A stretch of DNA of 64,000 nucleotides from Thermodesulfovibrio sp. (GTDB lineage: Bacteria > Nitrospirota > Thermodesulfovibrionia > Thermodesulfovibrionales > Thermodesulfovibrionaceae): positions 62,001 through 126,000 of the forward strand of contig DYFF01000020.1 of assembly GCA_020725335.1 (NCBI GenBank), in the 5' to 3' direction. The position numbers and the translations under genes were made by a program. The notes beneath the pieces are model-generated. The model was not told the DNA's origin. It searched no databases and worked only from the letters and a program-made list of their open reading frames with translations. Shown one piece after another: positions 34,811-39,584 of the stretch. The stretch's first letter is position 1; each line of letters begins with the position of its first letter.

Positions 34811-35923
34811 TCAGCTTCCCTCTAAAAAAGCCTTTATTTCAACAGGTTCACTTTCCTTCATAGGACCTTCAGTGTTAATTTTATAGTATATAGGCGATTT
34901 AATAATGTTACTATTATATTCAAAATCACAAAATAGAGGAATCATTGTTTCACCAATTAACTTAAAATCTTTTTCACCTGCTGATTTTCTGTATATTTTA
35001 TATCCCTTAATCCATTTTTCAGAAACTTCTTTCCAAGAAAGATATACTCCCTGTTCATTAATTGCCCAGAAAACTTCTTCAGGCTTTGATGGCATAAAGG
35101 AATCAATAGGAATGGTTATATAAGTTCCCTTACTTTCTATATATGTTGATTCAGAATGGATGGAAGTGGTTATAACATAATTTATAGAATGACTTGTAAA
35201 GGCAGTTATGGTTGAATAAAGTAGCTCATCCAAAAAAAAGTTTTTATCTGTTGCACCTATTTTTACTCTTTCACCCTTTTGATTTATTCGGTAAATATTA
35301 TAGTAGTTTGATGAATTACTTATCTTCCATGAAAGCATAACTCCTTGAGGAGTTACTTGATGTCGAAGATTTTCGACTTCAGGTAATTTTAAAGGAGTTA
35401 TAACTGCTTCAGTGGGTTTGCTATAAATACCCTTTGGACGAATAGCAAAGATGCGGTATCTATAACTCTCTCCAAATGTAAAATTTTTATCTTCTAAGAG
35501 CGTTGTGTTTTTGTCATAATATCCTATAGTTTTTTTCTCACCTTTATTTTCTCTTTCAATTAAAAAACTTTCTATTTTTGCTTTCGCCTTTTCTGGATAG
35601 CTCCATGAGATTAAAATTTTATCATAGGTTGCTGATAAATTTAATTTCTCTACAGCCTCAGGTTGAAGATAATCTTCAAGAGTAGGATCCATTTTTCTAC
35701 CACAGGCAGAGAGGAGAAATAATGAAGTTAATATAAGTAGCCATATTGATGCCCTATTGAGCGATTTAGCTATTTTGGGGTAACAGTTCTTAACGAAGCG
35801 AAGCGTAAAAAAGCTGCAATTGTTTGAGCTCCGAAAGAGCGAGTTTTGCGGATTTAGCGTAGCGAGTTTAGAACTGTCCCAAAATAGCTCATAAGCGAAA
35901 TAGGGTATCAGCTTTTCTTTCAT
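34811..35923 (-). CDS. Fibronectin-III-like lipoprotein carrying an in-frame palindromic element
   Basis: A 370-residue product. The first codons (MKEKL) overlap the argH stop by four bases (ATGA). A 54-codon segment encoded by the palindromic element follows, then a lipoprotein signal core IWLLILTSLFLLSACG (lipobox LSAC, about residue 74). The mature part has three fibronectin-III-like modules, each with a WSYPEKAKAKIESFLIERE- or YKIYRKSAGEKDFKLIGET-like pattern. Removing the 162-base element joins MKEKL directly to IWLLIL, a textbook lipoprotein signal peptide. No ATG, GTG or TTG lies in frame between the element and the lipobox. Function unknown; an outer-membrane or periplasmic binding role is inference. 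The insertion lengthens the n-region by 54 residues and may impair export. Confidence 0.75.
   Translation of the reverse strand: MKEKLIPYFAYELFWDSSKLATLNPQNSLFRSSNNCSFFTLRFVKNCYPKIAKSLNRASIWLLILTSLFLLSACGRKMDPTLEDYLQPEAVEKLNLSATYDKILISWSYPEKAKAKIESFLIERENKGEKKTIGYYDKNTTLLEDKNFTFGESYRYRIFAIRPKGIYSKPTEAVITPLKLPEVENLRHQVTPQGVMLSWKISNSSNYYNIYRINQKGERVKIGATDKNFFLDELLYSTITAFTSHSINYVITTSIHSESTYIESKGTYITIPIDSFMPSKPEEVFWAINEQGVYLSWKEVSEKWIKGYKIYRKSAGEKDFKLIGETMIPLFCDFEYNSNIIKSPIYYKINTEGPMKESEPVEIKAFLEGS
35748..35909 (-). repeat. Palindromic element, copy 1 (inside lipoprotein gene)
   Basis: A 162-base imperfect palindrome. Arms pair as GATGCCCTATT with AATAGGGTATC (one G:T), AGCTATTTTGGG with its complement, and ACAGTTCT with AGAACTGT. 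Inner arms meet at an apical GCTC/GAGC hairpin (35828-35840). A homologous copy lies at 37318-37480 in the same orientation. Length is exactly 54 codons and one frame is open throughout, so it is translated as part of the lipoprotein. Confidence 0.88.
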
Positions 35924-37296
35924 CCCTTCAAACTTTTCCTCAAAAGCTTTATCTGCTCCTTAACACTCTTCTTCGAAGTGCTTCCATAGGAAATCTTTGC
36001 CTCAATTGAACCCTCTGGTGTTAGTATTCCATATACATCTTCATCAATTTTATCCGAAAAATTCTTCAACTCTTTTATGCTTAAATCTGTTATAGACTGA
36101 CCTTTTTCAATGCAGTAAAGCACAATTTTACCTGTTATCTCATGGGCAATTCTAAAGGCAACTCCTTGTCTCACAAGATACTCAGCAAGGTCTGTAGCGG
36201 TTATATATCCACCATGGCAGGCTTCTTTCATTCTATCTTTGTGGAATTTTATCTCAGGAAGCATTTCAGTAATTACTCTAAGGCTCGTGCTTACTGTGTC
36301 AATTGTATCAAAAAGGGGTTCTTTGTCTTCCTGCATATCTCTGTTATAGGTAAGCGGAAGCCCTTTCATTGTTGTTAACAGGGAAATCAAATTACCATAG
36401 ACTCTGCCTGTTTTACCTCTGATTAATTCTGCAGGGTCAGGATTTTTTTTCTGGGGCATCATACTCGAACCTGTTGAGAATCTGTCTGGAAGTTCAATAA
36501 ATTTGAATTCATCTGTTGCCCAGAGTATTATCTCTTCAGATAGCCTACTTAGATGCATCATGAGCATAGCACCTGAGAAAAGGACATCGCAAACAAAATC
36601 TCTGTCAGAGACAGCATCCATGCTGTTTGGAATTGGCAATTCAAAGCCTAATTCTTTTGCTGTAAAAAGTCTGTCTATTGGTAGGCTACTTCCTGATAAA
36701 GCACCTGCACCAAGGGGGCTTTGATTTATCCTTTTTATTGCCTCTTTTAGCCTTTGTCGGTCTCTTTCAAACATCCATGCATAAGCAAGAAGATGGTGAG
36801 CAAGAAGCACTGGTTGGGCTTTCTGTAAGTGGGTGTAGCCTGGCATAATTGTATCGATATTTTTTTCAGCAAGATTAACAAGAGTTTTTTCAAGTCCTGC
36901 TGTTAACTCTATTAATTCATTTACTTTTTTTCTCAGATAAAGTCTTAGGTCTGTTGCAACCTGATCATTTCTTGAACGAGCAGTATGAAGCTTTGCTCCT
37001 GCAGAGCCTGCTTTTTCAATCAAAGCTTTTTCAATGTTCATATGTATGTCTTCAAGCTCTTCTTTGAATTCAAACTTTCCCTCTTTGATTTCCTTTTCAA
37101 TTTCAGAAAGCCCCTTTAGAATCTGCTTTAGCTCCTTTTCTGTTATAATTGCTTGTTTGTATAACATCTTGGCATGGGCTCTGCTTCCCTCAATATCCTC
37201 CTGCCAGAGCCTTTTGTCAAAGGATATTGACTGGGAAAACTCCTCCAGTGTCTTTGCAGTGCCTTCCTTAAACCTACCACCCCAAGGTTTTTTCAT
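35920..37296 (-). CDS. argH: Argininosuccinate lyase
   Basis: The last enzyme of arginine synthesis, cleaving argininosuccinate to arginine and fumarate. The 458-residue protein has PWGGRFKEGT at the N-terminus, HTARSRNDQVATDLRL, MPGYTHLQKAQPV and the superfamily signature GSSMMPQKKNPDPAELIRGK (about residue 278). Length is normal. It is flanked on both sides by copies of the palindromic element. Its start has an AGGAGA ribosome site. Confidence 0.97.
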   Translation of the reverse strand: MKKPWGGRFKEGTAKTLEEFSQSISFDKRLWQEDIEGSRAHAKMLYKQAIITEKELKQILKGLSEIEKEIKEGKFEFKEELEDIHMNIEKALIEKAGSAGAKLHTARSRNDQVATDLRLYLRKKVNELIELTAGLEKTLVNLAEKNIDTIMPGYTHLQKAQPVLLAHHLLAYAWMFERDRQRLKEAIKRINQSPLGAGALSGSSLPIDRLFTAKELGFELPIPNSMDAVSDRDFVCDVLFSGAMLMMHLSRLSEEIILWATDEFKFIELPDRFSTGSSMMPQKKNPDPAELIRGKTGRVYGNLISLLTTMKGLPLTYNRDMQEDKEPLFDTIDTVSTSLRVITEMLPEIKFHKDRMKEACHGGYITATDLAEYLVRQGVAFRIAHEITGKIVLYCIEKGQSITDLSIKELKNFSDKIDEDVYGILTPEGSIEAKISYGSTSKKSVKEQIKLLRKSLKG

Positions 37297-37317
37297 CTAT
37301 TCTCCTTTAGTTGAAAT

Positions 37318-37480
37318 AGATGCTTTGATAAGCGACTTATAAATCTTCTGGTAACAATTCCATACGAGCAAAGCGTAAAACAGCCGCAATTGTTTGAGCT
37401 CCTTGGGAGCGAGTTTTGCGGCTGTAGCGTAGCGAGTTCGGAATTGTCAGAAGATTTACTTGAAGCGACATAAAGCATCT
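37318..37480 (-). repeat. Palindromic element, copy 2 (between EF-G-like gene and argH)
   Basis: A 163-base palindrome homologous to copy 1. Arms are AGATGCTTT/AAAGCATCT (perfect), AAATCTTCTG with its complement (perfect), ACAATTCC/GGAATTGT (perfect) and CAGCCGCAA/TTGCGGCTG (perfect). The apex is GCTCC-TTG-GGAGC (37398-37410). The arms differ in sequence from copy 1 yet still pair, while unpaired stretches such as AATTGTTTGA are identical. It fills the gap between the two genes. Confidence 0.88.
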
Positions 37481-37487
37481 GTTTGCT

Positions 37488-39584
37488 TCACTCCTCAGCC
37501 TTTGCCTGACGCTCTTTTTGCCTTTGCTCAATTATCTTCTGAGCAATATGTGAAGGCACCTCTTCATAATGAGAAAACTCCATAGAATACATTCCTCTTC
37601 CTGAAGTCATGCTGTGAAGTTGGTTTGCATAGGTAAGCATCTCTGCCATCGGAACAAGAGCTGTTATCTTTTGATTTCCTCCTGCCTGGGGGTCAACACC
37701 CTGAACCTTACCTCTACGGGAGTTAAGATCACCAATAATTGTACCTAATGTTTCATCAGGCACGATTATTTCGGCTTTCATTATTGGTTCAAGCAATACA
37801 GGTTTTGCATCCATAAAAGCTTTTTTTAGCGCAAAAGAACCAGCTATTTTGAAAGCCATTTCTGAAGAATCCACTGGATGATAAGAACCGTCATAGAGTG
37901 TTACTTTAATATCAATGATTGGATAGTAGGCCAAAATTCCCTCTTTCATAGTATCAATAATTCCCTTTTCAACTGCGGGACGATACTGTTGAGGAATAAC
38001 ACCACCAACAATTTTATCAACAAATTCATAACCTCCACCTCTTGGAAGAGGTTCTATTTGAATCCAGCAGTCACCATACTGACCTCTTCCCCCAGACTGT
38101 TTCTTGTACTTACCCTGAGCACTTGCAGTTGCCCTTATTGTCTCTCTATAGGGAACTTTTGGTGCCATAAGGTTAACTTCTACTCCGAATTTTCTCTTAA
38201 GTTTCTCAAGAGCTACTTCTATATGAACCTGTCCCATCCCGCTTAAAATCATATCTTTTGATTCTTCATCCCTTGAGAATTTAAGAGTTGGGTCTTCTTC
38301 AAGAAGTTTGTGAAGCCCTGCGCTTACCTTTTCTTCATCACCTCTTGTTTTTGGTGCAATAGCATAGGATATAATGGGTTCTGAGAATCTTACTTCTGGA
38401 AGCTGAATAGGATTGTTTTCATCGCATAGAGTATGTCCTGTGAGAGTATCTTTAAGTTTTACTGTAGCAACAATCTCACCAGGTCCTGCTTTCTGACAAG
38501 GTGTTTGAGCTTTCCCAAGAATGTAGTAAATCTGACCAATCCTTTCCTTTGTCCCTGCATTCGGATTAAGAACTGTTGAGTCAGCTTTAAGCACACCTGA
38601 GAAAATTCTAATATAGGAAATCTTCCCAGCAAAGGGATCAATGGTGGTTTTAAAAACATAGGCAGCAAGAGGTTCTCCCTCAGATGGCTTTCTTATTACT
38701 TCATTTCCATCCTTTGGATTAGTTCCTTTTATAGGATATATATTAGCTCTTTCATTAGGATCTGGAAGAGTTAGGATAATACTATCAAGTAAAGCTTCCA
38801 CACCAATTCCTAAAAGTGCTGAACCAGCAAGCACTGGGATAAATCTACGAGCAATAGATGCATCATGTAATCCTTTTCTTAATTCTTCTTCGGTTAGTTC
38901 TCCTCCTTCAAGATATTTTTCAAGAAGACTGTCATCAAGCTCAGCTATTTTTTCTACAAATTTTTTTCTGTAATCATCCACTTTAGTTGAAAGCTCAGAA
39001 GGTATTGCAACTTCTTTCATTGTCTTGCCATCTTGAAGATAGGCTTTTAGGGATATTAAATCAACAATTCCCTGAAGACCAGGACCTTCGCCAATTGGCA
39101 AAGTAAGGGGAATTGCTTCTTGTCCGAAAACTTTTTCAATCTCAGCAACTGCTCTATCAAAGGATGCATTTTCTTTATCAAGCTTGTTTACAAAAACTAA
39201 TCTTGGAAGATCATAGTCATCACAATATTTCCATATTCTTTCAGTTTCAGCCTTGACACCTGAAAGTGCACTAACAATTACTACTGCACCGTCGGATACT
39301 CTTAAAGCATTCTTTGTATCTTCAAGAAAGTTTACAAAACCGGGTGTATCTATAATATTAATTCTGTAATCCTTGTAATCACAGTAAGCAACTTTACAGC
39401 TCAATGTCATGTTTCTTGCAAGTTCCTCAGGCTCATAATCAATTACCTTACCTGTAGTTTCACCTGTAGTTACTCTGTCAATCTGCCCTGTTTTAAAAAG
39501 TATCTGTTCTGCAAGCTTGGTATTCCCTGCACCTGCATGGGCTACGATTGCGATGTTTCTGATTTTTGTGATATCTCTGCTCAT
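37488..39584 (-). CDS. Elongation factor G-like GTPase with altered P-loop
   Basis: A 698-residue EF-G homologue with all five domains: G domain, DTPGFVNFLEDTKNALRVSDGAV (G3), NKLDKE (G4), domain II, and domains III-V with the QVHIEVALEKLKRKFGVEV and GGRGQYGDCWIQIEP segments. The P-loop reads AHAGAGNTKLAE, with Asn where GK[ST] has its essential Lys. Switch I reads RNMTLSCKVA, not RGITI. It therefore belongs to the EF-G2/EF-G-like paralogues rather than canonical fusA. It is not next to rpsL/rpsG/tuf. Role could be ribosome recycling or a regulatory function; nucleotide hydrolysis may be weakened. Confidence 0.85.
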   Translation of the reverse strand: MSRDITKIRNIAIVAHAGAGNTKLAEQILFKTGQIDRVTTGETTGKVIDYEPEELARNMTLSCKVAYCDYKDYRINIIDTPGFVNFLEDTKNALRVSDGAVVIVSALSGVKAETERIWKYCDDYDLPRLVFVNKLDKENASFDRAVAEIEKVFGQEAIPLTLPIGEGPGLQGIVDLISLKAYLQDGKTMKEVAIPSELSTKVDDYRKKFVEKIAELDDSLLEKYLEGGELTEEELRKGLHDASIARRFIPVLAGSALLGIGVEALLDSIILTLPDPNERANIYPIKGTNPKDGNEVIRKPSEGEPLAAYVFKTTIDPFAGKISYIRIFSGVLKADSTVLNPNAGTKERIGQIYYILGKAQTPCQKAGPGEIVATVKLKDTLTGHTLCDENNPIQLPEVRFSEPIISYAIAPKTRGDEEKVSAGLHKLLEEDPTLKFSRDEESKDMILSGMGQVHIEVALEKLKRKFGVEVNLMAPKVPYRETIRATASAQGKYKKQSGGRGQYGDCWIQIEPLPRGGGYEFVDKIVGGVIPQQYRPAVEKGIIDTMKEGILAYYPIIDIKVTLYDGSYHPVDSSEMAFKIAGSFALKKAFMDAKPVLLEPIMKAEIIVPDETLGTIIGDLNSRRGKVQGVDPQAGGNQKITALVPMAEMLTYANQLHSMTSGRGMYSMEFSHYEEVPSHIAQKIIEQRQKERQAKAEE

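Follow-up and report, generated by a model that had tools for sequence, protein, structure and literature searches.

The two palindromic sequences that flank argH in the window (the whole stretch of 64,000 nucleotides of Thermodesulfovibrio sp. DNA that was analysed) are best explained, at a probability of about 0.78, as copies of a palindromic, MITE-like mobile element that is non-autonomous, measures ~160–200 bp, is probably mobilised in trans and would be constrained in its fold.

Two interrupted hairpins around argH

Copy A (35748–35909, + strand) is recognised by motif, by fold and by R1, a covariance model built from the two window copies only (155 bits in G000), and copy B (37318–37480, + strand) by fold and R1 (148.6 bits). 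For copy A the + strand is the better-folding strand, bearing TTTGAGC..GCGAGTTTT. The copies share the same orientation, are 162 and 163 bases long and have ~84% identity across 184 aligned columns. The original prediction was exact in their coordinates and orientation, and all the arms and loops that it quoted are in place. Each copy is a single long interrupted hairpin. The RNA fold reaches -69.8 kcal/mol (z -7.5) for copy A and -75.3 kcal/mol (z -9.0) for copy B, 30–35 kcal/mol lower than shuffled sequence and equalled by 0 of 200 shuffles in either case.

The core is defined by four conserved asymmetric loops, the stems between them being variable. From outside to inside the order is outer arm, loop GAGCGA/GAGCGAAA, second arm, loop GGTAACA/TGTC, third arm, loop AGCGAAGCGT/TAGCGTAGCGAG, fourth arm, loop TTGTTTGA/GAGTTT and apical hairpin. 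The fold of copy A on the + strand pairs the 5' side of the outer arm (GATGCCCTATT, 35748–35758) with 35899–35909, the second arm (AGCTATTTTGGG, 35768–35779) with 35878–35889 and the third arm (ACAGTTCT, 35783–35790) with AGAACTGT at 35870–35877; the second and third arms are helices 1 and 2 of A6, in which both covary. The conserved apical module of copy A (35820–35846: loop TTGTTTGA, hairpin GCTC-CGAAA-GAGC, loop GAGTTT) recurs in other phyla between different stems. The fold of copy B, also on the + strand, pairs the second arm (AAATCTTCTG, 37342–37351) with CAGAAGATTT at 37448–37457 and the third arm (ACAATTCC, 37354–37361) with GGAATTGT at 37440–37447, and its conserved apical module (37390–37415) consists of loop TTGTTTGA, hairpin GCTCC-TTG-GGAGC and loop GAGTT. 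The lower arms are unlike between copies yet paired, and the loops are the same. The outermost ends are likewise paired in both copies with unlike sequences (GATGCCCTATT/AATAGGGTATC in A versus AGATGCTTT/AAAGCATCT in B). A pattern scan finds the apical module only twice in the window and twice in the entire genome.

Between both copies lies argH (35920–37296, - strand), coding argininosuccinate lyase (Lyase_1 and ASL_C2). Upstream of argH, the stop codon of the gene for an EF-G-like GTPase (37488–39584, - strand) is at most 10 bp from copy B. On the other side follows an ORF (34811–35923, - strand) that codes an fn3-domain lipoprotein and whose ATG overlaps the argH stop codon. In an addition to the original prediction, copy A is not confined to the spacer: it lies inside this ORF and is read through in frame, preceding the hydrophobic signal segment and the lipobox (SIWLLILTSLFLLSAC). 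Where relatives lack the element, the start of the lipoprotein gene coincides with the argH stop codon or adjoins it, and the signal peptide is short and normal. Four species carry the element, in two versions, between the first codons of the lipoprotein gene and the hydrophobic segment, with the frame open throughout and no in-frame start after the element. The element is read in one frame in the window genome and G005 and in another in G015 and G008.

Element and flank identities disagree among species pairs at this locus: G005 and G015 have flanks 93% identical and elements 79.8% identical, while elements are 96% identical between G015 and G008 (flanks 73–81%) and 93.8% between the window genome and G005 (flanks 73–78%). 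Elements at this site are thus replaced, by repeated insertion or by exchange. The idea that the outer arms are copied from the target was rejected, two species pairs keeping the same arms within different flanks. G002, G003 and G004 (L128, L129, L131) carry a different palindromic repeat (GTCATTCCGAG type) at the same spot of the signal region; the site downstream of argH is a repeated landing place. This other repeat is of GTCATTCCGAGCGAAGCGAGGAATCTC type, and G002 and G003 keep an open frame across it. In the spacer between a fusA-like gene and argH of G001 (L127) only an outer-shell remnant, GATAGAGATGTATTTCGCTTTCAT..TTGCTCAATACATTCTCTATC, is seen, as though the inner hairpin had been lost or had never entered.

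At least one frame of the element's - strand is free of stop codons in 81% of 111 copies versus 44% when pairs are shuffled and loops kept, a comparison in which the shared ancestry of related copies limits inference. Insertion just past the argH stop codon would be tolerated because the gene-sense strand has such stop-free frames, which would add ~50 residues ahead of the lipoprotein signal segment.

Spread, mobility and modular construction

The covariance-model search of the genome and its relatives that was proposed with the original prediction finds copies genome-wide and phylum-wide. The 1.8-Mb genome of the window has three, the third found by R1. Of the 16 genomes of the genus, R1 detects the element in 9, and across all 16 it gives 20 further matches at E<1, 17 at E<0.001 and 14 below 1e-16; since a model from two copies alone yields 20 further matches, the similarity of the copies is not chance. 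R2, a model from 23 copies, has matches in 62 of 296 sampled genomes and in 38 of 135 genera of the phylum. At least 11 scored R2 candidates are found in each of several phylum genomes, whose true copy numbers are higher.

Covariance models also match in Desulfobacterota, Bacteroidota/Ignavibacteria and Bacillota. Full-length, clear R1 matches come from Deltaproteobacteria and Desulfobacula (69.7, 60.2 and 49 bits), Ignavibacteria (58.3 bits) and Proteiniphilum (40.9 bits), and weaker ones from Saprospiraceae (31.9 bits) and Croceifilum (24.7 bits), these scores being inflated by preselection of the loci by motif. Second copies without the exact motif are detected as well (L084 at 340–464, L046 at 2457–2576). 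Run genome-wide, R2 gives at least 51 matches in a Saprospiraceae genome (G306) and 19 in Acetivibrio alkalicellulosi, both absent from the training set. An exact scan for TTGTTTGAGC(2-26)GCGAGTTTTGC returns 89 stretches, most with different flanking stems that pair; not all of them are family members, some lying in ordinary coding sequence. Betaproteobacteria have only the apical part in common, with non-significant scores, and are not counted as family members. The apical motif CAATTGTTTGAGC..GCGAGTTTTGC stands there (L055, L061, L080, L085) inside longer GC-rich repeats with other stems. No element match was obtained in the plasmids, phages and viral contigs searched. Rfam 15 holds no matching family at gathering or relaxed thresholds, its sole match being a chance one to mir-558 (20.2 bits versus a gathering score of 90), and no description of a cross-phylum structure-conserved repeat was found in the open papers searched. 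The family is apparently undescribed, absence from the open literature and Rfam being no proof of novelty.

The mobile, MITE-like nature of the element that had been proposed is borne out by these copies together with empty sites, 5-bp duplications and terminal inverted repeats (TIRs). The element measures 160–210 bp, lacks transposase coding capacity and occurs in multiple dispersed copies; its outer arms are paired in nearly all of them, forming TIRs that are explicit in G079/G096. Comparison with orthologous loci lacking the element, also proposed originally, reveals exact empty sites for L027: this insertion of 198 bp is found in G005 only, and the junction is closed in G015, G001, G002 and G003, where the host genes overlap and the BLAST pieces abut with a 3-bp overlap. 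Dispersed copies have entered junctions where genes are closely packed, and relatives show the exact empty sites.

A young subfamily in G079/G096 (CCCAAATCCAGCGATAAGGAT..ATCCTTATCGCTGGATCACAG, 195–197 bp) has TIRs, and five of its copies have the common ends CCCAAATCCAGC..GCTGGATCACAG. Target duplications of 5 bp (TTTTA, AATTA, TAAAT, AGAAA, ATAAT) border 5 of 5 of these young copies versus 1 of 20 cross-pairs, and L287 in G154 likewise has a 5-bp direct repeat, TATAC. The target-duplication claim is restricted to the young subfamily because a blind flanking-repeat search over 111 copies gave no excess over the control. None is evident at either window copy; so in older groups, the window copies included, a recognisable duplication was lost or never present. 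Near-identical copies split the assemblies of G295 and G306 into contig ends, a sign of recent spread. The fixed length of the target duplications suggests that a DDE-type transposase moves the element in trans. The folded strand, as single-stranded DNA or RNA, would have to keep its shape for copying or tolerance, and source elements would drift in stem sequence and not in structure because the fold is required. G079, G096, G154 and G295 showed no long element bounded by the same TIR, and no enzyme is linked to the element.

In G079/G096 the same terminal shell is also found nearly empty at 42–56 bp (L384, L389, L398), with an internal deletion (L387), holding an unrelated palindrome of TCATTGCGAGC type (L388) and around element copies that are themselves split by another palindrome (L385, L386, L391). 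The element core is split in the latter three loci of G079 by a ~125-bp palindrome, TCAGGCAATGGTATAATC..CCATACCATTGCCTGA, so that palindromes are nested in palindromes. In G306, a Saprospiraceae MAG, the core lies inside a different high-copy MITE of >400 bp with ends GGGTTATTCAG..CTGAATATCCC (L334–L353), which shows 6-bp repeats at some copies (AAGAAA, TAATTA); at least 51 copies of it carry the core, many at contig ends. Because shells occur without the core and the core occurs inside a different MITE, the element is modular, its inner core being partly separable from its outer ends. The same core in the MITE of G306 also shows that end recognition by a transposase is not what holds the core constant. 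Element copies of G177 and G150 (L206–L216) adjoin another large palindromic repeat, GGAAATCnAACCACCTGCCTTTA / TAAAGGCAGnTGGTT.., which has internal motifs of its own; the two together look like a composite unit.

The conserved fold and competing readings

The covariation test suggested with the original prediction gives values far above both of its controls. Among 102 phylum copies two-sided changes are found in 34 of 37 pairs, 93.7% of cells are paired versus 79.8% after shuffling, and the covariation score is 0.450 versus 0.186 for shuffled and 0.063–0.090 for slid alignments, the slid control being the guard against the rise in score that comes from fitting alignments to the structure. The observed values are matched by 0 of 500 shuffles. 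Loop motifs are fixed and unpaired across phyla, while the paired arms change; within one genome the arms differ widely among copies and the inner parts stay alike. With the weak helix 5 left out, G.U pairs number 97 on the + strand versus 33 A.C, a difference whose p-value of 2e-8 must be read with caution, the copies being related. In 73 of 75 copies it is the + strand that gives the better fold. The G.U excess and the better folds mark one strand as that whose fold matters.

The claim that the folded form is under selection is supported across the family by covariation, fixed loops and G.U excess; against a simple version of it, many changes between orthologues within the genus break pairs, as dead copies would show, so that individual copies often decay. 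Palindrome-restoring mutation could contribute to the covariation. At L223/L240, from two genera, the element and adjoining spacer are ~97% (96.8%) identical while the flanking genes are 78–81% identical, and the single paired double change is compensatory by inspection. Such conservation is better explained by function or exchange than by neutral decay, and may reflect selection on certain copies or short-tract exchange. The high identity begins and ends near gene boundaries.

According to simple ORF calls for 112 copies, the neighbouring genes are both on the - strand at 55 copies, both on the + strand at 18, convergent at 16 and divergent at 17, and a facing stop codon is usually within ~40 bp of the arm. 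Given the 55 versus 18, the better-folding strand is mostly antisense to the neighbouring genes. This placement may stem from a preference at insertion, from selection against harmful positions or from a function. The abutment on gene 3' ends, the orientation bias, the identity at L223/L240 and the singling out of one strand by G.U pairs would all suit a primarily regulatory structured RNA or 3'-end element (terminator, mRNA stabiliser or antisense RNA) for which mobility is a means of spread only. This explanation is unlikely: the better-folding strand, being antisense to most neighbours, is not host-gene mRNA, close relatives differ in having a copy and show clean empty sites, pairs are broken by many of the changes between orthologues, no Rfam family matches even at a relaxed threshold and no consistent gene partner was noticed. 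A purely regulatory form of the structured RNA family put forward originally is less probable and is not needed.

Template switching corrects long palindromes and gives paired changes in one step. Matching arms could then stem from such restoration and not from selection, in line with arms that differ widely among the copies of one genome around inner parts that stay alike. This process would, however, erase asymmetric loops, which are fixed and unpaired across phyla; it makes perfect pairs and no excess of G.U over A.C, while 97:33 is observed; and one-sided, pair-breaking changes prevail between genus orthologues. As the origin of the covariation it is improbable.

The mobile element of the preferred reading could in principle be REP-like and moved by a RAYT (TnpA-REP, Y1 transposase), as was also proposed at the outset, being palindromic, intergenic and a single-strand hairpin, with RAYT-sized Y1 genes in some high-copy genomes. 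This proposal is very unlikely: a Y1_Tnp gene is missing from the window's genome, G005 and G015 and from the many-copy genomes G132, G150, G177, G218 and G233, the element is within 1.5 kb of only 1 of 30 Y1 loci, and its length and target duplications are unlike those of REPs. An RNA-borne, SINE-like element copied by reverse transcriptase is the least credible alternative, since RNA-like covariation and G.U pairs on one strand are set against TIRs and fixed 5-bp duplications that point to cut-and-paste DNA, the lack of RVT_1 in the window's genome and in carriers G109, G132, G150, G154, G177, G218, G265 and G079, and no target-primed features seen. Two other candidates were rejected. The AbiF/Abi_2 RNA motif (RF03085), considered as a structured hairpin, has no Abi_2 gene in 41 genomes and no Rfam match. 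The integron attC site, considered as structure-conserved and placed behind stop codons, has RYYYAAC/GTTRRRY end boxes that were not seen here by inspection, and element copies adjoin ordinary housekeeping genes.

Relation to known repeats and significance

The behaviour of the family is known from MITEs and from RPE/ERIC-like palindromic repeats. What is unusual is its structure-conserved, sequence-variable core, common to several phyla and found in different terminal shells. The palindromic repeats of bacteria are known mainly as families that are confined to one lineage and identified by their sequence.

Rickettsia palindromic elements (RPEs) are ~105–150 bp long, intergenic or in frame within protein genes, and have stop-free frames (PMC2229807, PMC10969869). 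Compared by description, copy A resembles them in its in-frame insertion with a stop-free frame at the argH-lipoprotein locus of four species, in two frames. RPEs are described from Rickettsia, whereas the present family spans phyla, turns over its stems while keeping its loop motifs, and has 5-bp target duplications in one subfamily. ERIC, YPAL/RU-2 and NEMIS/Correia are intergenic palindromic MITEs of 100–170 bp with stable folds and a location at gene ends (PMC2229807, PMC2267715), characters shared by the present family. They are recognised by sequence and the present family by its co-varying core; ERIC and YPAL are described from enterobacteria and relatives, with no recognised sequence relation to the present element. 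The Chunjie MITE of Geobacter uraniireducens, as cited in PMC10969869, is 178–235 bp long, with TIRs and direct repeats, and lies in an operon without breaking it; it is likened to the present element by description and not by sequence, in its behaviour as a small TIR-bearing MITE. REP elements with RAYT (GTAG/CGTC-tagged) measure 20–40 bp and have a tag and an associated Y1 gene (PMC3733652, PMC8266576). They too are palindromic, lie at the ends of genes and presumably fold in single-stranded form; the present element differs in having no Y1 association.

A bolder and tentative reading takes the core as a cross-phylum structured module (single-stranded DNA or antisense RNA) riding unrelated MITEs and palindromic shells, its fold being read by a widely shared cellular factor. 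If true, the core would serve as a portable accessory, allowing mini-transposons of very different kinds to be copied or to be tolerated at gene ends, and not as the end-recognition signal of one transposase.

For the fold-constrained mobile element favoured here, experiments could ask whether a small mobile element has to preserve its fold and not its sequence. At the argH locus, insertion, replacement and in-frame tolerance form a natural series that can be followed at a single site, and a covariance model would annotate many hundreds of unexplained intergenic hairpins.
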